IMG/VR virus record: IMGVR_UViG_3300027736_000132 | Location: 1-33,953 of that record | DNA: 33,953 nt | From: a virus | Strand: one strand, 5' to 3' | Shown: positions 21,131-33,056 of the stretch, piece by piece | How the letters are laid out: each line of letters begins with the position of its first letter | How positions within the stretch are numbered: the stretch's first letter is position 1 | The notes under the pieces: model-generated | The model's database searches: none | The model's input: the letters and a program-made list of their open reading frames with translations, nothing else | What the model was told of the DNA's origin: nothing | Translations under genes and position numbers: made by a program

Positions 21131-21391
21131 ATGGCAAAAGGGATAAAAACAGGAGGGCGCAAGGCCGGGGTCGGTAACAAGACGACGGTTGATGTGCGCG
21201 AGGCAATTGCCGCATTTGCGTCTGCGAACGTTGGGCAAATGACTACGTGGCTTTCAAGTATTGACGATCCGGCCAAGAAGCTCGACTTGTACCTGCGCGC
21301 TATCGAATATCATATCCCTAAGCTAGCAAGGTCAGAGCAAACCGGGCCAGATGGCGGGCCGCAAGAGCATACCTTCAGGTGGCTTGAGTAA
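21131..21391 (+). CDS. Terminase small subunit-like protein
   Basis: 86 aa, MAKGIKTGGRKAGVGNKTTVDVREAIAAF at the N-terminus. A Gly/Lys-rich DNA-contact opening (GGRKAGVGNKTT) and a helical core (DPAKKLDLYLRAIEYHIPKLAR) are typical of short proteins encoded directly before large terminase genes in proteobacterial podoviruses. It would recognise the packaging site. The stop overlaps the large subunit start by one base (TAATG). The assignment rests on pattern and position. Confidence 0.7.
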   Translation: MAKGIKTGGRKAGVGNKTTVDVREAIAAFASANVGQMTTWLSSIDDPAKKLDLYLRAIEYHIPKLARSEQTGPDGGPQEHTFRWLE

Positions 21392-22719
21392 TGCTCCACG
21401 TTATCCCCTACAAGCCGCGTGCCGCTTTCCTGCCGTTCCACCAGCGCACCAAGCGTTGGTCATGCCTGGTGGCTCACCGGAGGGCTGGTAAGACCGTGGC
21501 GGCGATCAACGACCTGATTAGAGCCGCGGTAACGAGCAAAAGCCCGATGCCGCAGTTTGCTTACATCGCGCCGTTTCGCAGCCAGGCTAAATCGGTGGCG
21601 TGGGATTATCTTAAGCACTTCTCTGCTACCTCGGCTGCCAGCACCAATGAGTCAGAGCTGACCGTGGACATGATCAACGGCAGCAAAGTCAGGCTGTTTG
21701 GCGCCGACAATGCAGATTCGATGCGCGGGCTGGGCTTTGACGGTATCTTCATGGACGAGTATGGCGACTTCAAACCGTCGGTATGGGGCAACGTCATCCG
21801 GCCAGCGCTCTCCGACCGGCAAGGCTGGGCGGTGTTCGGTGGAACTCCAAAAGGCAAGAATCAGTTTTGGGAAATAAAGCAGACTGCCGAACGGTTGCGG
21901 GATGAATGGTTCCTGTTGCAGCTGCCGGCCAGCAAGTCAGGGCTGCTGCCTGATGGCGAGCTTGCGGCGGCAAGGGCGCAGCTTTCAAAAGATCAATACG
22001 ATCAAGAATACGAAATTTCATTTGAAGCGAGCATTTTAGGGGCGTTTTACGGCACAGAGATGCGCGAGGCCACCGAGCAAGGCCGGATCTGTCAGGTTGA
22101 CTACCAGCTCGATGTGCCTGTGCACACCGCGTTTGATTTGGGCTATCGTGACGACACGGCGATCTGGTTCTACCAGGTCATCCGCGGCGAGATTCACGTT
22201 ATCGATTACTACGCGGTGTCCGGCGCCAACATTGCAGAGCTGGCCGCGGTGATCACCGGCAAGCCGTACAAGTACGGCAAGCACTACCTGCCGCATGATG
22301 CTAAAGCCAAAACGCTGGCCGCGCAGGGCAAAAGCATTATTGAGCAGCTCGCTGACTACCTGGGCATCAACAACCTAGCCATCGTGCCAGACCTGAGCGT
22401 GCAGGACGGCATCCAGGCGGTGCGGCAGATGCTGCCGAATACATGGTTTCACGTGGAACATTGCGCCGAAGGCATCGAGGCGCTGCGCCAATACCAGCGC
22501 GAATACGACGAGGACAAGAAGGCATTTAGGCAGACGCCGCGGCATGACTGGTGCTCGCATCCGGCAGACGCAATGCGAATGCTGGCGATAGCCTGGCGCG
22601 CCGAACCGACCGTCAAGCCGCCAGACAGGATAAAACCGTTGATGGTCGGACCGGAAAACACCGTAACACTTAACGACATGTGGGCAACTATGAAAACTAA
22701 CAGGAGTGGCAGATTATGA
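21391..22719 (+). CDS. Terminase large subunit
   Basis: 442 aa. The ATPase domain carries a Walker A variant HRRAGKT (29-35), Walker B GIFMDEYGDF (118-127, D122/E123) and the coupling motif GGTPKGKN (150-157). The RNase H-like nuclease domain has its acidic residues at AFDLGYRDDTAIW (D249), LPHDAKA (D303) and HPADAMRML (D393). It is the packaging motor that pumps and cuts DNA at the portal. The length and complete motif set indicate an intact enzyme. Confidence 0.95.
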   Translation: MLHVIPYKPRAAFLPFHQRTKRWSCLVAHRRAGKTVAAINDLIRAAVTSKSPMPQFAYIAPFRSQAKSVAWDYLKHFSATSAASTNESELTVDMINGSKVRLFGADNADSMRGLGFDGIFMDEYGDFKPSVWGNVIRPALSDRQGWAVFGGTPKGKNQFWEIKQTAERLRDEWFLLQLPASKSGLLPDGELAAARAQLSKDQYDQEYEISFEASILGAFYGTEMREATEQGRICQVDYQLDVPVHTAFDLGYRDDTAIWFYQVIRGEIHVIDYYAVSGANIAELAAVITGKPYKYGKHYLPHDAKAKTLAAQGKSIIEQLADYLGINNLAIVPDLSVQDGIQAVRQMLPNTWFHVEHCAEGIEALRQYQREYDEDKKAFRQTPRHDWCSHPADAMRMLAIAWRAEPTVKPPDRIKPLMVGPENTVTLNDMWATMKTNRSGRL

Positions 22720-23039
22720 GCGGCGTAAACAATCCGTACAGGTATCAGTATGAGCACGTTGCGGCAAGTTCTACCGCGCAAGTCTTGGGTGGCACAGGCG
22801 CAAAAGGCGACTATTTGCACCGTATTGTTTGCACCGTTAGCACATCTGCCACCGGCAACGTGCAAATCGTTGATGGTTCGGGAACAGGCATCCTGACGCA
22901 TACCATCCTTCCAGCGCTTGCAGGTACTGGCGTGAACGTCTACAACGTCGAGCTGAACGCGGTTTCCGCTGACGGCGCATGGAAGATTACAACCGGCGCA
23001 GGTGTCGAAGTAATGGCGGTCGGGATCTTCAGCGCATGA
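22716..23039 (+). CDS. Small beta-rich virion-type protein
   Basis: 107 aa starting MSGVNNPYRYQYEHVAASSTAQVLGG. Thr/Ser/Val/Gly-rich, predicted as a beta sandwich (GDYLHRIVCTVSTSATGNVQIVDGSGTGILTH; NVYNVELNAVSADGAWKITTGAGVEV). Such short proteins are usually head decoration or head-fibre parts, though none is certain here. It overlaps both neighbours by four bases, linking terminase to the glycosyltransferase gene. Confidence 0.75.
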   Translation: MSGVNNPYRYQYEHVAASSTAQVLGGTGAKGDYLHRIVCTVSTSATGNVQIVDGSGTGILTHTILPALAGTGVNVYNVELNAVSADGAWKITTGAGVEVMAVGIFSA

Positions 23040-23632
23040 TCGCTTGCGTCCTAAAGTCGGGCGGTGACTTCCTGCCGAAGCACGTTTATGCTTTGCAGGA
23101 GATGTGCGACCGCTACCTGCCAGACGAAGATTTCATTTGCCTGACCGACTTAGACTTGGACTGTCAGATATTGCCGCTGGCGCACGACTGGCCGGGCTGG
23201 TGGTCGAAGGTTGAGTTGTTCCGGCTACCGAGCGCCTTGTACATGGATTTGGACACCGTTCTAGTCGGCGACTGCACCGAGCTGCTGGAGGCGGCCCGAC
23301 CGCACGACTTTGTGATCATGCGCGATGTTTACCGCGGCGCCGCCGATCCGCGGTCGATGCAATCCAGCCTGATGTGGTGGTCGAGGCCGCATCAGTTCAT
23401 CTATGACGCATTCAAGGCGGGCGACCGCTACTGCGAAGGGGGTGATCAGGTCTATCTGGAATGGGCGTTAAGTGGCCGCCTGGTCAAATACTGGCAGGAC
23501 ATTACGCCCGGCATCAAGTCGTTCAAGGCCGACATACTGCCGAACGGGGTGCAGGCCGAGGACCGCCTGATCGCGTTCCACGGCAAGCCGCGGCCGTGGG
23601 AACAGACTAGGGTGGCTTATGCGTCAGCATAG
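23036..23632 (+). CDS. Glycosyltransferase, GT8-like
   Basis: 198 aa from the coupled ATG at 23036. MIACVLKSGGDFLPKHVYALQEM is the nucleotide-sugar-binding strand and helix; YLPDEDFICLTD follows. LPSALYMDLDTVLVGD (64-79) carries the DxD metal motif (D71, D73) of retaining GT-A enzymes. GGDQVYLEWAL near 140 and IAFHGKPRPW near the end match the GT8 pattern of an Asp and a final His-Gly-Lys. The acceptor is unknown: a virion protein, or host surface sugar. The neighbouring methyltransferase overlaps it by 14 bases. Confidence 0.8.
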   Translation: MIACVLKSGGDFLPKHVYALQEMCDRYLPDEDFICLTDLDLDCQILPLAHDWPGWWSKVELFRLPSALYMDLDTVLVGDCTELLEAARPHDFVIMRDVYRGAADPRSMQSSLMWWSRPHQFIYDAFKAGDRYCEGGDQVYLEWALSGRLVKYWQDITPGIKSFKADILPNGVQAEDRLIAFHGKPRPWEQTRVAYASA

Positions 23633-24227
23633 CGGCTGGGCGGTCCCTGACGCTGACCAGTGCTGCATTCAAGCGGCGCTGGCCGAGGTGTGCGATCTTG
23701 GCGCTAGTCTGGATCTGTGCCGGCAGTTCAGGACCGCAATACAGGCCGGTGGCAATGTCGGCGTTTACCCGATGGCGATGGCGCAGAAGTTTGAGCGTGT
23801 CTACACCGTCGAGCCGGACGCAGCCAATTACGAGGCGCTGGCCATCAATACCGCCAGCCAGCCGCGGGTGATCATCCGCTGGGCTGCGTTTGGGCAGGAC
23901 CACAGCAAGGCGGCGATTGACCAGATTTATCCCGACAACATTGGCGCCCACCAGATCAAGGAGGGCAACGAGTTTGACGTTCTGCCGATTGACAGCCTGG
24001 GCGTAACCGACTGCGACCTGTTGCAGCTTGATGTTGAGGGATCCGAGCACCAGGCTATTTTGGGCGCCATTGCAACGATAGAGGCGAGCTGGCCGGTCAT
24101 CACTTTGGAACTTAAAGGCCACGGCGAGCGATACGGTTACACCGACGAGGACACGATCAACCTACTGGCCGACATGGGTTACAAGATTGCCGACCGGGTA
24201 AACAGGGATGTGATATTCACAAAATGA
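23619..24227 (+). CDS. FkbM-family methyltransferase
   Basis: 202 aa. AdoMet-binding motif I is QAGGNVGVYP (42-51), followed by VYTVEPDAANYEAL (61-74, acidic ribose contact E65). The family signature CDLLQLDVEGSEHQAILGA spans 132-150. FkbM enzymes O-methylate hydroxyls, often of sugars. With the overlapping glycosyltransferase it forms a two-step glycan-modifying pair. The start at 23619 lies inside the glycosyltransferase gene. The target is unknown. Confidence 0.85.
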   Translation: MRQHSGWAVPDADQCCIQAALAEVCDLGASLDLCRQFRTAIQAGGNVGVYPMAMAQKFERVYTVEPDAANYEALAINTASQPRVIIRWAAFGQDHSKAAIDQIYPDNIGAHQIKEGNEFDVLPIDSLGVTDCDLLQLDVEGSEHQAILGAIATIEASWPVITLELKGHGERYGYTDEDTINLLADMGYKIADRVNRDVIFTK

Positions 24228-24511
24228 CTGCAGCCTGGACACGCAAAGAAGGAAAGAATCCTGCTGGTGGGCTGAACGCCGCCGGACGAGCCAGTTACAA
24301 GGCCGAGACAGGTGGCGAACTTAAACCGCCGGTCAAAGCAGGTGACAATCCGCGCCGAGCTAGTTTCCTTGCAAGAATGGGCAGTATGCCGGGTCCGATG
24401 GAAAAAAACGGCGAGCCGACGCGATTGGCACTTGCGCTGAAAGCGTGGGGCGCATCCAGCAAAGCTGACGCTAAGAGCAAAGCTGCGGCAATATCGAACA
24501 GGAATAAATAA
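24224..24511 (+). CDS. Small basic protein of the DUF6321-like family
   Basis: 95 aa, AWTRKEGKNPAGGLNAAGRASY near the start, then ETGGELKPPVKAG and DNPRRASFLARMGSMPGPM, ending with ALALKAWGASSKADA. This nearly invariant pattern is found in phage and giant-virus proteins of unknown role. It is strongly basic and Gly-rich, suggesting contact with nucleic acid. Coupled to both neighbours by ATGA/TAATG overlap. Confidence 0.8.
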   Translation: MTAAWTRKEGKNPAGGLNAAGRASYKAETGGELKPPVKAGDNPRRASFLARMGSMPGPMEKNGEPTRLALALKAWGASSKADAKSKAAAISNRNK

Positions 24512-25761
24512 TGGCCGAAGCTGACAGAATTGCGGCTGCGCTGCGCTACCAGCAAGAACTGGATGCGGCACAACGCCCTGCTACCATGAACCCGAACATA
24601 GCCGCGCAGGGGTTAAAATCACGCAATCGAATTGCTGCCGAATTAGCTAGTCAACCGCAATCATGGTCTGGTGAAGAATTACCAATGGAAGGCCGGGCAA
24701 CCTTTTTGCCGTTTCAAGACACGCTGCCGGGGTCAGTGATGAACAAGCGCAGCTTGGCATTGCCGGGCATTGTTGCCGGTGCCGTTAATGCGTTTACTGC
24801 GCCAGGCCGAGCCTTAAGCGGCAGCGATCCGAACTTTAATCCGCAGGAAGAAGCCGCAAACTTTGCCATGAATGTGATGGGTGGTGGTATCGGCGCGTCC
24901 AGGCTTGCGCCAGCGCCTGCTGGGTCGTTGGGGATGTTTATTGGAAAAACAGCTAAAAACTGGAATGCAGCAGCAGAAGCAAAAGCATTAGAAATGGAAA
25001 AGTCAGGCGCAACTCCGCAAACAATATGGCAAGAAACCGGCAACTGGAAAGCACCGGATGCGGCATGGCGGCAAGAAATAAATGATGCAGGTTCTCGAAT
25101 GACAGAAAAAGTGCATAGCGACATAATGTCTAAGCATTTTTTTAACGATCCTTTAAGTGAAGCATTGACCCATGAACCGTTGTATCGAGCCTATCCCGAA
25201 TTAGGCAGGATTAAAACAACTGTTACAGCATGGGAGCAACCAAAAGGATCATTTAGCCCATTAAGAAACGAACTAGAGGCGTCCGGCCCTAGTTCAATGA
25301 CGCAACGTAGCACCGCCTTGCATGAGTTGCAGCACGCAATCCAACAGAAAGAAGGATTTGCAAGGGGCGGCAGTCCTGAGATGTTTCGGCAATCAACAGA
25401 CTTTAGTTCCAAAGCATTACAAGATGCTGCAATTCTTGATAAAACAATGCGGGCATCAAACCTTAGCCAACTTGAAGCGTTAAAAAGATTTGAAGTATTG
25501 TTTGGCAGAAAGCCCGAAGCGGGTGCGTTTGCTGCATTGGAAAGAGTAGGAACAGGTAAAGAATTGGACATTGCAAGGGATGCGGCTAGAGAAGCAGAAA
25601 AATTAGCAAAAAATCCTTTGGAATCTTACCGCCGCCTTGCCGGTGAAGCCGAAGCTAGAGCTACCCAAAAGCGCAGAAACCTAACAGACGAACAACGCCG
25701 CGCAGAGTTTCCTGAACGCTCTTATGACGTGCCAATTAACAAACTAATCATTAGGCGATAA
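24511..25761 (+). CDS. Predicted zinc metalloprotease with polyvalent-protein (LPD23-like) region
   Basis: 416 aa. Residues 1-140 are a less ordered lead. From GMFIGKTAKNWNAAAEAKALEMEKSG (141-166) through TIWQETGNWKAPDAAWRQEI it matches the pattern of large-polyvalent-protein-associated domain 23. STALHELQHAIQQKEGFARGGSP (267-289) contains a HExxH zinc site (H271, E272, H275), and YRRLAGEAEARATQKRRN (373-390) offers E379 as third ligand. LPD proteins are usually long multi-domain proteins injected with viral or conjugative DNA; here one stands alone before the portal gene. It may act in virion maturation or in the host after entry. Confidence 0.75.
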   Translation: MAEADRIAAALRYQQELDAAQRPATMNPNIAAQGLKSRNRIAAELASQPQSWSGEELPMEGRATFLPFQDTLPGSVMNKRSLALPGIVAGAVNAFTAPGRALSGSDPNFNPQEEAANFAMNVMGGGIGASRLAPAPAGSLGMFIGKTAKNWNAAAEAKALEMEKSGATPQTIWQETGNWKAPDAAWRQEINDAGSRMTEKVHSDIMSKHFFNDPLSEALTHEPLYRAYPELGRIKTTVTAWEQPKGSFSPLRNELEASGPSSMTQRSTALHELQHAIQQKEGFARGGSPEMFRQSTDFSSKALQDAAILDKTMRASNLSQLEALKRFEVLFGRKPEAGAFAALERVGTGKELDIARDAAREAEKLAKNPLESYRRLAGEAEARATQKRRNLTDEQRRAEFPERSYDVPINKLIIRR

Positions 25762-25763
25762 AC

Positions 25764-28037
25764 ATGGATGAGCAAAGCACCGGCGTCGATAAATGGCTGC
25801 ACGTTATTAGCCAGTACGACAACGAATTTAAAAAGTGGGAAGCCCGCAGCGCGAAGATCGTCAAACGCTACCGCGACGACAACCGCAGTCAGCACACGAA
25901 CGAAACCGCGAAATTCAACATCCTTTGGTCAAACGTGCAGACGCTGATACCGGCGGTTTACGCCAAGTTGCCCAAAGCGGTGGCCGAGCGCCGGTTCGGG
26001 GACAATGATCCTGTTGGCCGGGTTGCTGGTTCGCTTATCGAGCGCGCACTGGACTTTGAGATCGAGCACTATCCAGATTTCCGCGCAACGATGAAACACG
26101 CTGTTGAGGACAGGTTTCTCGGTGGCCGCGGCACCGCTTGGGTGCGCTACGAGCCGCATGTAAGGCAAATGGACATGCCAGAGGACGGGTTGCAAATCAC
26201 TGAGGATGTTGAGAATGAAGCAGCCGAAGGCCAGACGCCAGAAGGCGCGCCAAAGCCCGAAAATCAAGACTACACCGCAGGCGAAACCGAGCCGCAGGAA
26301 GAAATTGAGTATGAGTGCGCCCCGACCGACTATGTTCATTGGAAGGATTTTGGGCATTCTGTTGCTCGCACTTGGGAAGAAGTGACTTGCGTATGGCGCT
26401 GGGTGTACATGACAAAAGAAGCTCTAACCGAGCGGTTTGGCGCAAAGATGGCCAAATCAATTCCGCTGGACTCTGGCGCCGAAACGCTGGCGTCCTACGG
26501 GCAAAGCAATAAAGAGCGCACCAGGGCGAAGATATGCGAACTGTGGGACAAGGAATCGGGCAAGGTGTATTGGCTGTCAAAGAACTGCCCGAATCTGATA
26601 GACGAGCGTGACGATCCGCTGGAGCTTGACCAGTTCTTCCCCTGTGCTCGACCGCTTTACAGCACCACCACAAGCGACAGCTTAATTCCGGTGCCTGACT
26701 TTGTGATCTACCAGGACCAAGCCAACGAACTGGATATTCTGTCAGACAGAATTGACGGACTGGTCAAGGCATTGCGGATCCGTGGTGTTTACGATGCCAG
26801 CCAGCCTGCGCTGCAACGGCTGTTAACCGAGGGCGACAACAACTCGTTGATTCCGGTCGATAAATGGATGGCATTTAGCGAGAAAGGCGGGCTGAAGGGC
26901 AGTATCGACATCTTGCCGATCGACATGCTGGCCAACGCGCTGCTTAACTGCTACAGGGCGCGGGAGGACATAAAAGGCCAGATTTACGAGATTACAGGCA
27001 TTAGCGACATTATCAGAGGCCAAACGTCGGCCAGCGAAACCGCTACCGCCCAGCAGATCAAAGGCCAGTATGCCGGGCTGCGGTTGCGGAGTATGCAGGA
27101 AGAAGTGGCGCTGTTTGCCAGCGAACTGATCCGCTTAAAAGCGCAGGTTATTTGCACTAAATTCCAGCCGCAGACGATTTTGCTATACGCCGCGGCAGGG
27201 CAGATGAGTCAAGAAGATCAGCAAATGATTCCGCAAGCCATCCAGCTTATGCAAGACAATCCGCTGCGGAACTTTCGTATTGAGGTTGATGCTGACAGCT
27301 TGGTTCAAATCGATGAACAACAAACTAAAAAGGACCGCGTTGAATTCCTGACCGCATTCGGTGGTTTTATGCGCGAGTCGTTGCCGGTCGGCCAGCAATC
27401 GCCTGAACTGGTGCCAATGCTAGTTGAGCTGATTAAATTCGGCATTGGCGGTTTTAAACAAGCCAAACCGATTGAGGGCGTGCTTGATGTCGCGCTTGAA
27501 CAGATGAAACAGAAACAGGCCGGACCACAAGAACAAAAGCCAGATCCAGAAATGATGAAGATGCAAGCGCAACAGCAATCCGAGCAGATGCGAGTGCAGG
27601 CCGACACGCAAGCTGCCCAGGCTAAGATGCAAGCAGAGATGCAAATAACGCAAGCCAAAGCGCAGGCCGATATGCAAGTTGAGCAGATGAAAATGCAACA
27701 CGCTGCACAATTGGAACAACAAAAGCTGCAATTTGAAAAAGAACGCACCGAGCTGGAAGCCGCAACTAAGCTTATGGTGGCGCGTATCGGCGCTAACCCC
27801 GGCTTAGATATACCAATGATTGAAGCGCAGCAGGCAGCAAGCGAGAAAGTCAGCGCCGAGCTGGGCGAGAACGTAAAAATGGCAATTGACCACATGGCGC
27901 AAATGCACGAAAACATGGCAAACATGCATGGGGAAACCATGAACCGCATCGGTGGTGTCATGCAGACACTGGCGGCGCCCAAGCGCATCGTGCGCGGGCC
28001 AGATGGCAAGGCAGTCGGCGTCGAGGTTGCGGCATGA
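25764..28037 (+). CDS. Portal protein (P22 type)
   Basis: 757 aa, close to P22 portal length. The N-terminus (WLHVISQYDNEFKKWEARSAKIVKRYRDD) is a helical clip/wing start. The body has conserved portal features: ILWSNVQTLIPAVYAKLP near 51-68, DYVHWKDFGH near 190, LDILSDRIDGLVKALRIRGVYD near 325-346, and ITGISDIIRGQTSASETATAQQIKGQYAGLRLRSMQEEV near 410-448. Residues 580-690 are a long Gln/Met-rich helix with MQ repeats, the barrel region lining the DNA channel. Twelve copies are expected at one capsid vertex. Confidence 0.9.
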   Translation: MDEQSTGVDKWLHVISQYDNEFKKWEARSAKIVKRYRDDNRSQHTNETAKFNILWSNVQTLIPAVYAKLPKAVAERRFGDNDPVGRVAGSLIERALDFEIEHYPDFRATMKHAVEDRFLGGRGTAWVRYEPHVRQMDMPEDGLQITEDVENEAAEGQTPEGAPKPENQDYTAGETEPQEEIEYECAPTDYVHWKDFGHSVARTWEEVTCVWRWVYMTKEALTERFGAKMAKSIPLDSGAETLASYGQSNKERTRAKICELWDKESGKVYWLSKNCPNLIDERDDPLELDQFFPCARPLYSTTTSDSLIPVPDFVIYQDQANELDILSDRIDGLVKALRIRGVYDASQPALQRLLTEGDNNSLIPVDKWMAFSEKGGLKGSIDILPIDMLANALLNCYRAREDIKGQIYEITGISDIIRGQTSASETATAQQIKGQYAGLRLRSMQEEVALFASELIRLKAQVICTKFQPQTILLYAAAGQMSQEDQQMIPQAIQLMQDNPLRNFRIEVDADSLVQIDEQQTKKDRVEFLTAFGGFMRESLPVGQQSPELVPMLVELIKFGIGGFKQAKPIEGVLDVALEQMKQKQAGPQEQKPDPEMMKMQAQQQSEQMRVQADTQAAQAKMQAEMQITQAKAQADMQVEQMKMQHAAQLEQQKLQFEKERTELEAATKLMVARIGANPGLDIPMIEAQQAASEKVSAELGENVKMAIDHMAQMHENMANMHGETMNRIGGVMQTLAAPKRIVRGPDGKAVGVEVAA

Positions 28038-28682: not shown

Positions 28683-29333
28683 ATGGCACAAGGCGCATGG
28701 GACACCGGCACCTGGGATGCTGCCCTGTGGGACAGTTTGCCTGTCACCGGCAATTCTGCAACAGGATCGCCAGGTAATGTCGGCGCTGCCGCAACTGTTT
28801 TACTTACCGGGAACTCAGCAACCGGAGCGCCCGGCACCGTTGGCGCCACCGTCACCATCGCGCTATCGGGCGTGCAGGCTACGGGGCAGGTTGGGACAGA
28901 GGGTGTCAGCGCGACGGTACCGATCACAGGCACTGAGGCAACCGGCGCCGCGGGATCTGTTGGCCTGGTCATCACGGTTTCATTGTCTGGAAACAGCGCA
29001 ATCGGCGAGGTTGGGACGGTCACGGTTATGCCGGAGCCGGTCATCGTTATTGATGACACGCACGACGGGAAAAGATTTAAAGAGCAACTCAAACGCGAGC
29101 GCAAGCTCAGAGAAAAGAAAAAACAGGCAATTCTTGACGCATTTGAGCGAATTGTTGAAGGCAGGCCAGAGATCGCCGAGGAAATTGCCGCGCCGTTTAT
29201 CGTGCAGCCAAAAGCTAAATCAACGGTTCTGGCCATCAATTACGACGCGCTGTTTGCCGATCTGGACCGCGTGCAGCGGATCTGGGATACCCACCTTGAA
29301 ATGGATGATGAGGACGTTTTGACGCTGCTATGA
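28683..29333 (+). CDS. Virion protein with five 20-residue repeats and a charged helical tail
   Basis: 216 aa. Residues 5-18 are AWDTGTWDAALWDS. Residues 21-115 hold five repeats with an exact 20-residue period and core T-G-x-x-A-T-G-x-x-G-x-V-G, suggesting a regular beta solenoid or fibre. The C-terminal half is very different: a highly charged helix (RFKEQLKRERKLREKKKQAIL) and an acidic end. The Trp element also occurs in the tail-hub protein at 1411. This organisation suggests a head or tail fibre with an anchoring domain. No firm family. Confidence 0.75.
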   Translation: MAQGAWDTGTWDAALWDSLPVTGNSATGSPGNVGAAATVLLTGNSATGAPGTVGATVTIALSGVQATGQVGTEGVSATVPITGTEATGAAGSVGLVITVSLSGNSAIGEVGTVTVMPEPVIVIDDTHDGKRFKEQLKRERKLREKKKQAILDAFERIVEGRPEIAEEIAAPFIVQPKAKSTVLAINYDALFADLDRVQRIWDTHLEMDDEDVLTLL

Positions 29334-29659
29334 AAAAAATTTACATACAAATTGATGGCCAATTAATTGAGAAATCAACGCATTACAGTGAGCCTGTGGC
29401 GCCAATCATTATGCCCGACATCCAGCCTTATCAGTCGATGGCAGATGGATCAATGATTACCAGTCGCAGCCATCACCGCGAGCACCTGAAGCAACACAAT
29501 TGCATCGAGATCGGCAACGAAACTATGGAAACCAAACCAGTGCCGGTAAAAGACAACCGCAAACAAGTGTTGCGGGAACAACTGGCAAATATGACGCACA
29601 GCCAAGCAAATAAAATGCTGGCCAAGCTGCGTGACGATCTTCGTTTTATCCGCAGGTAA
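29330..29659 (+). CDS. Hypothetical protein preceding the scaffold gene
   Basis: 109 aa starting MKKIYIQIDGQLIEKSTHY, ATGA overlap. The middle has an IMPDIQPYQSMADGSMITSRSHHREHLKQHNCIEIGNE pattern that I recognise from many phage genes lying before scaffold or coat genes; its role is unknown. The C-terminus is helical and charged (NRKQVLREQLANMTHSQANKMLAKLRDDLRF). Confidence 0.8.
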   Translation: MKKIYIQIDGQLIEKSTHYSEPVAPIIMPDIQPYQSMADGSMITSRSHHREHLKQHNCIEIGNETMETKPVPVKDNRKQVLREQLANMTHSQANKMLAKLRDDLRFIRR

Positions 29660-29678: not shown

Positions 29679-30674
29679 ATGTCCGACTTAAATGAAATCG
29701 TCCCAGTAGATAACGCAGACAACCGCCGCGATCTGTTATCCCAGCAATTTGATGATGTTGCTGAAGCGGCGCCAGAACCTGCAAAGGTTGAACCGGCAAA
29801 ATATGAAAAGCAGCGGGATGAATCCGGCAAGTATGCGAAGCAGGTAAAAGCAGAACCTACCGAGCCAATTGAAGAACCGTTGTGGAAACGCCCACCGGCA
29901 AGCTGGAAGAAGGATTACCACGAGGATTGGAAAGCCGCCCCAGCTCGAATGCAGGAGTATGCCTGGCAACGTGAAAATGAAATGAAAGCCGGTGTTGAGC
30001 CGCTTATCTCCAAAGCACAGTTTGCCGACCAAATGCAAGAAGTGCTCAATCCGTACATGAACACGATCCAAGGGCTTGGCATAGATGCGCCAAAGGCTGT
30101 AAAAGCGTTGATGGAAGCAGATCATGCCTTGCGCTATAGTAATCCGCAGGAAAAGCACCAGTATTTTGCTAGACTTGCACAAAGTTATGGAGTAGATTTA
30201 AATAATATGGGTAATCTGCCACAACAGATGCCCGTTGATCCAACCATTTTTGCATTGCAAAACGAACTAAACAACGTTCGAGGAGAAGTGCAAGGATGGA
30301 AGCAGGCACAGGAACAACAACAGAATCAGGCTCTCTTAGGTGAAATAAACATCTTCAGCCAGAAAGCCGAGTATTTCGAGGAAGCAAGGCCGGTAATGAT
30401 CCAGCTCCTACAGAGCGGTGTGGCCAAAGACCTTGATGATGCGTATCAAAAAGCATTGCGCTTAGATCCGACCCTGTTTGAAAGTGTGCAAGCCAGCAAA
30501 CAAGCTGAACTTGATACCTCAAAAAGAGCAGCAGCAAATAAAGCTGCTAAGTCGGCAAGAGCGGCAGCGGTGAGCGTGCGTGGATCCACACCCGGAACCG
30601 TGACAAATACCAAAGCACAAGATCGTCGGGCTTTACTTGCCGAGCAATTCGACAACATAAGCGACCGACTTTAA
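29679..30674 (+). CDS. Capsid scaffold protein
   Basis: 331 aa from the ATG at 29679, after GGGAGC; an upstream frame opening at 29631 is rejected because it lies in the preceding gene. The protein is charged, Gln/Glu/Lys-rich and predicted helical, with a Pro-rich N-terminal third containing LWKRPPASWKKDYHEDW, typical of podovirus scaffolds encoded before the coat gene. Residues 16-25 (RRDLLSQQFD) and 316-325 (RRALLAEQFD) repeat the same motif at both ends. It should guide capsid assembly and then leave. Confidence 0.8.
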   Translation: MSDLNEIVPVDNADNRRDLLSQQFDDVAEAAPEPAKVEPAKYEKQRDESGKYAKQVKAEPTEPIEEPLWKRPPASWKKDYHEDWKAAPARMQEYAWQRENEMKAGVEPLISKAQFADQMQEVLNPYMNTIQGLGIDAPKAVKALMEADHALRYSNPQEKHQYFARLAQSYGVDLNNMGNLPQQMPVDPTIFALQNELNNVRGEVQGWKQAQEQQQNQALLGEINIFSQKAEYFEEARPVMIQLLQSGVAKDLDDAYQKALRLDPTLFESVQASKQAELDTSKRAAANKAAKSARAAAVSVRGSTPGTVTNTKAQDRRALLAEQFDNISDRL

Positions 30675-30696: not shown

Positions 30697-31698
30697 ATGG
30701 CTTTTGCCAATAGCTCGATCAGCGACATCATTGCGACCAACATTCAAAGTCGTACTGGTGAGCTGGCCGACAACGTAACAAACAACAATGCGCTTCTGCG
30801 CCGACTCAAAGAACGCGGTAACGTGAAAACGTTTTCCGGTGGTAACGTAATCTTGCAAGAGGTTATGTATAACGACAGCACGACTAACAACACGAATTCT
30901 TATTCGGGTTACGAAGTGTTGAACGTCAGCCAAAACAGCCCGATCAGTGCGGCGCAGTTTGGTATCACTCAATACGCTGCTGCGGTATCAATCAGCGGTC
31001 TGGAAATGATCCAGAACACCGGCAAGGAAGCGATTATCGACCTGCTGGACGGTCGTATGAACGTTGCCGAAGCGCAACTGGCTAACCGTATCGGTTCGGA
31101 TATTTATCTTGATGGTACGGGTAACAGCGGTAAGAACATCACCGGACTTGGTGCTGCTGTGCCAGATGCTCCGACCTCTGGAACGTATGGCGGTATCAAC
31201 CGCGCGACGTATTCGTTTTGGCAATCGGTTGCTTATTCTGGTTTGACGAACGGCGGCGCGGCTACGACTGCATCCAACATCCAGCAGTACATGGATTCGG
31301 TAGCGGTTCAGTTGATTCGCGGAACGGATAAACCGGATCTGATCGTTGCAGACAATGTTTACTATCGTCTGTACCTTCAATCGTTGCAATCCATTCAGCG
31401 TATTTCTGATTCGGGTAGCTCGATGGCCGGTGCTGGTTTTGCCTCGCTGAAATACTACGGCGCAGGTATGGCATCGGATGTGGTGCTCGACGGCGGTATT
31501 GGGTCGGCGGCTACTGCATCGCACATGTGGTTCCTAAATACGAAATACATAATGTTCCGTCCGCACGTTGATCGGAATTTCGTACCGATTGGCGGCGAAC
31601 GGCAAGCCGTAAACCAAGACGCGATCGTGAAATTAATCGGTTGGGCTGGCAATCTTACGTCCTCCGGTCCGCAATTTTGCGGCGTGTTGATCGCTTAA
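30697..31698 (+). CDS. Major capsid protein
   Basis: 333 aa, with AAGGAG eight bases ahead of the ATG. It starts MAFANSSISDIIATNIQSRTGELADNVTNNNALLRRLKERG (helix) and continues with GGNVILQEVMYND, an A-domain-like helix GKEAIIDLLDGRMNVAEAQLANRIGSDIYLDGTGN, and KPDLIVADNVYYRLYLQSLQ, ending with MFRPHVDRNFVPI. This is the pattern of the podovirus HK97-fold coat protein group whose size is about 330 aa, the same as the Bordetella phage BPP-1 coat. Codon use is cleaner and more uniform than in its neighbours, as expected for the most abundant product. Confidence 0.85.
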   Translation: MAFANSSISDIIATNIQSRTGELADNVTNNNALLRRLKERGNVKTFSGGNVILQEVMYNDSTTNNTNSYSGYEVLNVSQNSPISAAQFGITQYAAAVSISGLEMIQNTGKEAIIDLLDGRMNVAEAQLANRIGSDIYLDGTGNSGKNITGLGAAVPDAPTSGTYGGINRATYSFWQSVAYSGLTNGGAATTASNIQQYMDSVAVQLIRGTDKPDLIVADNVYYRLYLQSLQSIQRISDSGSSMAGAGFASLKYYGAGMASDVVLDGGIGSAATASHMWFLNTKYIMFRPHVDRNFVPIGGERQAVNQDAIVKLIGWAGNLTSSGPQFCGVLIA

Positions 31699-31710
31699 GG
31701 AGAATAAATC

Positions 31711-32262
31711 ATGGCTTATACTTTTGCTGAAAATCAAAGCGGTCTGCTTCAGATCGCAAACATCGACACCGGGGTGACTTCACCTAGCGGCGTTTCGTCT
31801 GGCAGCTCGTCTGTCATTCCGACGCCGCCTAATGTCCTGGGCAAGATCGTGCGCGCTGACGATCCGACCTATGGCGAAGGCGAGTTCATTCTGCTGGTAG
31901 GGGTGGCTTCCACGGTGGTCGGTTCGTTGGTCAGTTACAACGCAACGACTTATCAAACGGTGTTGGTGCCGAATACTGCTGTCCAGGCTTGCCCGGTAGC
32001 AGTTGCGATGTCGGCTAACCTGGCTGGCACGTTTGGCTGGTATCAAATCGCTGGAAATGCGGTAATCAAGAAAACGGCAGTTGCGGTATCTCCGCAAGTG
32101 ACTGTATTCCTGTCCGCTACTGCCGGTCGCGTTAAGGTTCTTGCCTCTGCGGGTCTGCAAGTTGTCGCAGCTCGTTCGGCAAACCTGGCTACGATTGCCG
32201 CAACCGTTTCGACGGTCACGGTAACAATTAACCGTCCGCACCTGCAAAGCCAAATCACCTAA
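31711..32262 (+). CDS. Probable capsid decoration / cementing protein
   Basis: 183 aa starting MAYTFAENQSGLLQIANIDTG, with AAGGAGAAT 12 bases after the coat stop. It is Val/Thr/Ala-rich beta sequence with conserved-looking LGKIVRADDPTYGEGEFILLVG and GTFGWYQIAGNAVIKK segments. Small beta proteins encoded directly after the coat gene commonly cement the shell. The assignment is positional plus composition. The stop overlaps the next start (TAATG). Confidence 0.7.
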   Translation: MAYTFAENQSGLLQIANIDTGVTSPSGVSSGSSSVIPTPPNVLGKIVRADDPTYGEGEFILLVGVASTVVGSLVSYNATTYQTVLVPNTAVQACPVAVAMSANLAGTFGWYQIAGNAVIKKTAVAVSPQVTVFLSATAGRVKVLASAGLQVVAARSANLATIAATVSTVTVTINRPHLQSQIT

Positions 32263-33056
32263 TGGTTGATGCAGTTTTAGATGTTGTTGGAAACACACTC
32301 CCCAGCGTAATGCTGGGGAATGTGGAGCTGTCTTGCAAAAGGCAGCTTTCCTGGTTTGATTTTAATGATGAGTCAAACGAGGAAAGCATCTGCATTGTCG
32401 GTGGTGCTCCAAGTCTAAATGAGTCGGTGCATCAGCTAATAATTCGGCATCAGAACGGCGCCAGACTTTGGTCGGTAAACGGCACTTATGATTGGCTGCT
32501 TGCCCGCGGCATCGTTCCTGATGGGCATGTCATGCTTGATGCCAGGCCGGAGAATGTGCGGTTTGTAAAGAATCCCAAACTGGAAACGCAGTTTTACGTG
32601 GCCAGCCAGTGTGACCCCTGCGTATTTGACGCTTTAGAGGGCTTTAAAGTGGACCTGGTGCATGTCCAAACCGAGGGGGTCTACGAGTATCTTGAAAGCG
32701 AGCGCAAGCGCCCTGTGCATCTTATGGGCGGGTTTACGACGGTTGGCATGTTGGCGATGATTCTGGCCAAGCTAAAAGGCTATCGGCAGATTTACTTGTT
32801 TGGGATGGATTCCAGTTATTCAGAAGGCGAACACCATGTTTACAAACAAGAATCCAACGACGGTGAAAACGTAATTACGGCTACAATCCACGAAACAAAA
32901 TACAAGGCTGCGCCGTGGATGTGCCAGCAAGTGCGTGACTTTCAAACGCTTGCGCGTAAATTTGCCGAAGATGATGTAACAATTGAAGTTTGCGGTCCCG
33001 GTTTATTGTACGCAATGGCGAAAGCCATGACTTTTCCATTAACTCAAAGGATTTAA
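32262..33056 (+). CDS. DUF115 (MAF/MptE-like) protein
   Basis: 264 aa. ICIVGGAPSLNES (about 43-55) is the nucleotide-binding-like loop, followed by LWSVNGTYDWLLARGIVPDGHVMLDARPEN, the hallmark of the DUF115 group that includes Maf flagellin-sugar transferases and MptE. Later LMGGFTTVGMLAMILAKLKGYRQIYLFGMDSSYSEGEHH completes the pattern. Phage copies are often annotated only as 'norphogenetic'. A sugar-transfer role is possible and would match the glycosyltransferase and methyltransferase at 23036-24227. Substrate unknown. Confidence 0.75.
   Translation: MVDAVLDVVGNTLPSVMLGNVELSCKRQLSWFDFNDESNEESICIVGGAPSLNESVHQLIIRHQNGARLWSVNGTYDWLLARGIVPDGHVMLDARPENVRFVKNPKLETQFYVASQCDPCVFDALEGFKVDLVHVQTEGVYEYLESERKRPVHLMGGFTTVGMLAMILAKLKGYRQIYLFGMDSSYSEGEHHVYKQESNDGENVITATIHETKYKAAPWMCQQVRDFQTLARKFAEDDVTIEVCGPGLLYAMAKAMTFPLTQRI
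32299..32319 (+). other. Strong mRNA hairpin at the start of the DUF115 gene
   Basis: TCCCCAGC (32299-32306) and GCTGGGGA (32312-32319) form a perfect 8-bp stem with a 5-base loop, 37 bases after the DUF115 ATG. No U-tract follows. It may slow ribosomes or protect the upstream coat/decoration mRNA from 3' decay and so lower expression of downstream genes. Confidence 0.55.

Follow-up and report, generated by a model that had tools for sequence, protein, structure and literature searches.

Gene order and identity of the candidate scaffold

The window, meaning the whole stretch of DNA analyzed here, comprises the 33,953 bases of a virus record, whose genes follow the order terminase, portal, several small open reading frames (ORFs), candidate scaffold, and coat. 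The genes that matter for this analysis are as follows:

21391-22719, terminase gene
25764-28037, plus strand, portal protein gene, 757 aa (PHROG 12082 portal protein, E = 1.6e-183)
29330-29659, plus strand, small ORF of 109 aa directly 5' of the scaffold gene
29679-30674, plus strand, candidate scaffold gene, 331 aa, between portal and coat, with a middle part related to Mx8 p47
30697-31698, plus strand, major capsid (coat) protein gene, 333 aa (PHROG 9953 major head protein, E = 1e-102)

A profile built from 10 related coats, including that of the window, matched the phage major capsid protein structures 6j3q and 7f38. The ORF adjoining the portal gene on its 5' side (24511-25761) contains a large polyvalent protein-associated domain (Pfam LPD23, E = 1.3e-10). 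Lying among the structural genes of the window are a glycosyltransferase-like gene (22979-23632), an FkbM methyltransferase-like gene (23619-24227), and an MptE-like (pterin diphosphokinase-like) gene (32262-33056). In L086, a gut phage whose coat is related, a short ORF directly before the portal gene (935-1195) looks by eye like a GroES-type co-chaperonin.

The candidate scaffold protein had no family match at E ≤ 0.001 in PHROG or Pfam. PHROG 25516, a "virion structural protein" family, matches 5 of the 64 members of one of our alignments (A6), and the window protein is not among them. The middle part of the protein (query residues 53-266) is homologous to p47 of Myxococcus phage Mx8 (30% identity, E = 3e-16, tblastn) and is also related to the Mx9 homologue (31% identity) and to an environmental phage protein (26%). 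In Mx8 and Mx9, the p47 gene has the same placement as in the window, after p46 and before the coat gene. Scaffolding proteins of tailed phages are expected to bind coat, to be required for procapsid assembly, and to be missing from mature virions, and also to be encoded between the portal and major capsid genes and to be mostly helical with flexible or variable stretches; the window gene lies in this position, and its product is predicted by AlphaFold to have this architecture (mean pLDDT, 79.3). From gene order and these relatives, we infer that the window protein is a scaffold. The start codon, ATG at 29679, is backed by relatives, many of which begin with MSDLNEIVPV or nearly so.

The motif pair at the ends of the candidate scaffold

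The original prediction held that the scaffold carries the same motif at both ends and that both copies could be binding sites. The translation of positions 29679-30671 (331 residues) indeed contains both copies, which are identical at 7 of 10 positions. These copies, together with the predicted structural elements around them, are listed here:

29715-29768, plus strand, predicted N-terminal helix, residues 13-30 (AlphaFold, block pLDDT 65 and 74)
29724-29753, plus strand, N-terminal motif copy RRDLLSQQFD, residues 16-25
29913-30581, plus strand, helical core, residues 79-301 (AlphaFold)
30624-30653, plus strand, C-terminal motif copy RRALLAEQFD, residues 316-325
30624-30668, plus strand, predicted C-terminal helix, residues 316-330 (AlphaFold, block pLDDT 59 and 73)

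The two copies form the best-matching pair of 10-mers within the window protein, and an equal or better pair arose in 1 of 60 whole-protein shuffles, so the repeat in this single sequence is only moderately surprising. When the whole window was scanned in six frames with a regular expression, three matches were found, namely both scaffold copies and one in the small upstream ORF. We accept the repeat as real because of its conservation across relatives and not because of single-sequence statistics. A scaffold-based search with six search peptides yielded 80 loci which, after incomplete and duplicate proteins were dropped, gave 57 proteins in addition to that of the window; one of the six peptides overlapped the C-terminal copy, and this set of 58 distinct complete proteins could thus favor that copy. 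All 58 keep both copies. Positions R16, L20, Q23, and F24 of the N-terminal end, and K312, A313, R316, R317, L320, and F324 of the C-terminal end, are invariant throughout, and three of these share a register (16/316, 20/320, and 24/324). The part of the protein around the N-terminal copy (residues 1-70) is more variable than average. As whole 10-mers, the N-terminal and C-terminal copies rank an unexceptional 119th and 58th in conservation among 322 windows, indicating that the fixed part is the set of face positions rather than the entire stretch.

In the AlphaFold model of the scaffold (61 sequences; pTM, 0.37), the two end helices are separated from the core by stretches with pLDDT under 50. 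With modest confidence, each motif copy is predicted to form a helix apart from the helical core. Hydrophobic moments are low (the N-terminal copy ranks 258th and the C-terminal copy last of 320 windows), and hence the end helices do not resemble a classic amphipathic helix. A fold search of the PDB with the scaffold model gave 14 rows, none named scaffold and none at E ≤ 0.001, a result with which a shared fold is still compatible. A second structure comparison against the PDB aligned 27 chains (best Z, 5.2), again with none named scaffold and none at E ≤ 0.001. Among the best 50 of 62 matches in a viral structure library, E ≤ 0.001 was reached by six unnamed or uncharacterized phage proteins; two entries bearing the name scaffolding protein matched weakly (E = 0.095 and 3.3). 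A scaffold profile searched against the sequences of solved structures returned three rows (best E, 0.047), and phage proteins were absent from them.

So that the motif itself would play no part in the choice of relatives, we also fetched loci by their coat protein, leaving the scaffold sequence unused, and treated the ORF lying upstream of the coat gene at each locus as the scaffold. A coat match was found at 390 of the 402 loci; an upstream candidate was present at 361 of these and absent at 28, and 1 lacked an ATG. After 68 scaffold-fetched, 15 cut, and 4 odd-length candidates were left out, 274 scaffolds remained, and together with the window these 275 complete proteins formed 111 clusters at 50% identity. 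The most upstream ATG was used as the start, which is probably wrong in some cases (e.g., L164 and L397). A matrix learned from the last 28 residues alone gave the consensus S-[LIV]-R-[DE]-x-[LI]-E-x-A-[FMW]. Using its 11-residue core, we found the best second match within the first 110 residues, at a score of at least 8, in 69 of the 111 clusters versus 2.0% of local shuffles, compared with 12 of 111 clusters versus 6.5% of shuffles elsewhere in the scaffold. Matches scoring at least 10 occurred at a density per 10,000 positions of 51.6 in scaffold N-termini, 4.1 in middles, and 262 in C-termini (the training region), against 5.2 in the small ORFs and 1.6 in the remaining ORFs at these loci, which is an approximately 33-fold enrichment of the N-termini over other ORFs. 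Simple 12-mer BLOSUM matching was noisier; in 47 of 111 clusters, the segment most similar to the C-terminus fell within the first tenth of the sequence, with 22.0 expected from shuffled C-termini. The wider set thus has the same two-ended design in other dialects, such as SLRDxLExAF. Judged from these sequences, the window protein is one case of an apparently widespread two-ended design that recurs across a large phage group. The matrix additionally matches a large upstream ORF, probably the portal, in L178, L360, L361, L396, and L397 (e.g., TLEETLERAFD and SLEGALEQAFM), and these matches may be a portal look-alike site or chance.

The two ends also change together. The window clade has RRxLLxxQF at both ends, Mx9 pairs LRGSLEAA with LRGTIEAA, L136 pairs TRRELLSEAFD with SRREMLSEAWD, and L262 pairs SAREALEKAFA with TSRQALERAFA. 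Among the 80 of 111 clusters with an N-terminal score of at least 6, to which this test was limited, ends from the same protein scored 19.5 by BLOSUM62, compared with 11.5 for mismatched pairs and 12.7 for composition-nearest mismatched pairs (permutation z = 10.3). A protein's own C-terminal copy was the top partner in 8 of these 80 clusters and among the top five in 25, with a median of 9 others scoring higher. The correlation between N-terminal and C-terminal distances persisted after coat, portal, and core distances were removed (r = 0.127; 6 of 400 permutations). Gene conversion or recent duplication was rejected as the cause of the likeness, as codon agreement at identical residues is not above chance (the same codon at 128 of 325 positions versus 130.6 expected from gene codon usage, in clusters with an N-terminal score of at least 8). 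Ends that are alike without excess codon identity indicate that selection on the protein, and not DNA copying, maintains the likeness; selection at this level would keep both ends alike, which fits both facing the same partner surface. The part of the original prediction that treats the two copies as one functional motif is therefore strongly supported, given this co-variation and codon usage.

Alternatively, the likeness could be a generic helix-start pattern that arose by chance or composition and has no shared function. The shuffle that equaled the window pair and the slight advantage of composition-nearest over other mismatched pairs are in line with this explanation, which is nevertheless rejected at the family level by the invariance of the face positions in 58 of 58 proteins, the enrichment over other ORFs, and the lineage-by-lineage matching of the ends. 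We assign it next to no probability.

Relatives without a visible N-terminal copy, and a third copy in the small upstream protein

By its own terms, the original prediction would be refuted by related scaffolds that lack one copy and are otherwise alike. Such cases occur among a few distant relatives, whereas both copies are kept in every window-type protein. The N-terminus scored below 6 in 31 of the 111 clusters, a count that includes low scorers with an off-consensus copy or with a wrong or cut start. An off-consensus copy is visible by eye in several of them (L086, L190, L213, and L216; TRRxLExx-like). The start is probably wrong in L164, L397, and L399, the last of which has DDIRSAIAAA in frame just upstream. 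A cluster of 11 (L088) is also among the low scorers. In L334, L342, and L191, no N-terminal copy is visible and the C-terminal copy is kept. The start codons of these three lie 2, 2, and 10 codons past an in-frame stop, and the other frames just upstream are without the motif (81 bases covered in L334). L334 and L342 are 47% identical to each other. Since at least three distant relatives are without a visible N-terminal copy, this copy is probably not needed everywhere and is probably auxiliary, with the C-terminal copy being the more constant of the two. These three scaffolds constitute natural N-motif deletions.

The third match of the six-frame scan lies in the small ORF directly upstream of the scaffold gene:

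29558-29587, plus strand, third, weaker motif copy RKQVLREQLA, residues 77-86 of the small ORF (six-frame scan; AlphaFold helix 77-86)

Window-type relatives have 61 distinct small ORFs, and a pattern composed after inspecting these same sequences detected the third copy in 60 of them compared with 0.9% of shuffled tails; the sole ORF missing it (L069) apparently has an insertion. In the coat-guided set, small ORFs were found at 247 of 294 loci, many of them spurious or of another type by eye, and 34 of 96 small ORFs scored at least 4 versus 11.7 expected. The likeness of the small ORFs to the motif of their own locus was reached by 13 (C-terminal copy) and 1 (N-terminal copy) of 20,000 permuted pairings. 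By eye, no third copy was seen in small ORFs of a gut/rumen clade (e.g., L185), and in other lineages it sits nearer the protein end. These comparisons suggest that the third copy is supported, more weakly so across the wide set. The AlphaFold model of the small protein (mean pLDDT, 81.7; pTM, 0.36) has a helix-turn-helix tail consisting of helix 77-86, a turn, and helix 90-107. A comparison of this model with PDB folds gave 42 rows, none at E ≤ 0.001. Several relatives of the small ORF (e.g., L354, L088, and L289) have Cys and His residues near the N-terminus that look by eye like a zinc ribbon; the window-type small proteins lack these residues and keep a PYxSMxDG...GNE block.

Probable partner of the end helices and comparison with known scaffolds

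The flexibility of scaffolds has mostly kept from view how they hold coat subunits in register. That the two-ended design recurs and that its tips change together suggests that one scaffold molecule can clip two shell parts together. From its N-terminus, the protein would consist of a helix (13-30), a variable linker, the helical core (79-301), a short linker, and a second helix (316-330). Both end helices would present R, L, and F at positions i, i+4, and i+8 to one partner site, most likely on the coat, so that one scaffold chain could grip two coat subunits simultaneously and act as a staple. The C-terminal copy, close to the core, would be the main dock, and the N-terminal copy, on a longer leash, would be a second arm that is missing in a few lineages. 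The small upstream protein, with its weaker third copy, probably binds a similar site.

We used partial Mantel tests on 52 clusters to compare candidate partners, with portals found for 77 of the 111 clusters and some of these portals cut. N-terminal motif distance was correlated with coat distance when core and portal were removed (r = 0.168; 3 of 400 permutations), and gave lower values with core (r = 0.083; 35 of 400) and portal (r = 0.071; 54 of 400). C-terminal motif distance tracked the scaffold core (r = 0.167; 0 of 400), with a weak correlation with coat (r = 0.103; 37 of 400) and none of note with portal (r = -0.025; 251 of 400). These tests lean weakly to the coat, and not the portal, as the partner. 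The original prediction suggested that the C-terminus may bind coat and that the N-terminal copy could bind either coat again or the portal, thereby bridging two subunits. Coat binding at both ends with bridging of two coat subunits is the version we favor, and we put its probability slightly above even; coat as the target and the bridging itself are read from the patterns above. A broader proposal, for which we see some possibility and which we would hold to be rather unlikely in full, is that, in a large group of Mx8-like phages, one coat site is addressed three times by a single docking code specific to the lineage, at both scaffold ends as a two-armed staple and in the tail of the small protein as an in-house competitor or nucleator.

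Other partners must be weighed against docking of both ends on the coat. In one alternative, the scaffold would link the portal vertex to the shell, with its C-terminal copy docked on coat and its N-terminal copy on a corresponding site in the portal or in an ejection protein. The P22 scaffold does contact both portal and coat (PMC12005531; here and below, statements cited by PMC number refer to the available parts of those articles), and the gene that encodes the third copy lies after the portal gene and before the scaffold gene. However, if the ends bound two different receptors, they would not be likely to stay alike across lineages, and the N-terminal motif did not clearly track the portal in the 52 clusters once coat and core were removed, leaving this arrangement improbable. 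We give the same low probability to homotypic contacts, in which the end helices would bind each other or their own kind and build a scaffold lattice without contacting coat. Such contacts would likewise make the ends co-vary, tethered helices are compatible with them, and scaffold-core distance is what the C-terminal motif tracks best. A shared outside receptor nevertheless fits better with the presence of a third copy in another protein, and also with the terminal position of the motif, which has been interpreted as coat contact in 80alpha, P22, and phi29 (PMC12749128). The N-terminal copy might instead compete with the C-terminal copy for one coat site, keeping free scaffold or early complexes loose until it is displaced during assembly or release. 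The same motif on both ends and the absence of the N-terminal copy in a few lineages agree with this idea, as does the competition for coat between SaPI1 CpmB and the 80alpha scaffold, which have the same motif (PMC5644958); the present data do not separate competition from bridging, and we regard competition as quite unlikely.

With docking of both ends on the coat as the favored reading, the family-wide pair of co-varying end helices would offer a sequence-level handle on the scaffold-coat contact. The pair is also a way to recognize unannotated scaffolds, such as the window protein with its lack of a family match, and the motif links capsid assembly to a small, unstudied gene.

The closest known relatives have the same design. 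The Mx9 homologue of p47 likewise has a matched end pair in its own dialect, ESLRGSLEAAMEKHS and ESLRGTIEAAWANSS. The Mx8/Mx9 end motif is LRxxLEAA as opposed to RRxLLxxQF in the window, and the N-terminal linker of the Mx8 type is longer. We propose a matched motif at both ends as a feature of the Mx8 p47-like family, and the window protein has it. An evolutionary study linking Mx8-like phages to P22 mentions the scaffold gene, and the parts of it seen do not describe the end motif (PMC10386132). Consistent with that link, the portal of one relative (L086) matches Pfam P22_portal (E = 4.4e-7). Among the matches listed in our search of a literature library with few subscription journals, no title or abstract opening described a phage scaffold with like motifs at its two ends.

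Several well-studied scaffolds resemble the window protein in part. The 80alpha scaffold and its SaPI1 rival CpmB both bind a cleft in the coat through a C-terminal helix-and-hook that contains an RIIK motif (PMC5644958). The likeness to the window is a short terminal helix motif common to the scaffold and a second small protein. In 80alpha and CpmB, however, there is one C-terminal copy per chain of a different motif, with coat binding shown there (PMC5644958) and proposed here for the window; RIIK does not occur in the translation of the window protein. P22 gp8, with its N-loop, base, column, C-loop, and hook, has a helical body with flexible ends like that of the window protein. Only its C-terminus is described as having a coat hook, and the P22 authors place the coat-binding regions of the scaffolds they compared at the C-terminus as well (PMC12005531), whereas the window motif is at both ends. 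Dimers of the SPP1 scaffold gp11 have been proposed to act as double hooks (PMC6813328), with the two hooks coming from the two chains of the dimer, while in the window both are on one chain. In the available accounts, the scaffolds of 80alpha, P22, SPP1, and D3 have one coat-binding end per chain (PMC5644958, PMC6813328, PMC12005531, and PMC12749128). A scaffold with a terminal coat-docking helix is thus known, and the new element is a matched pair of ends on one chain.
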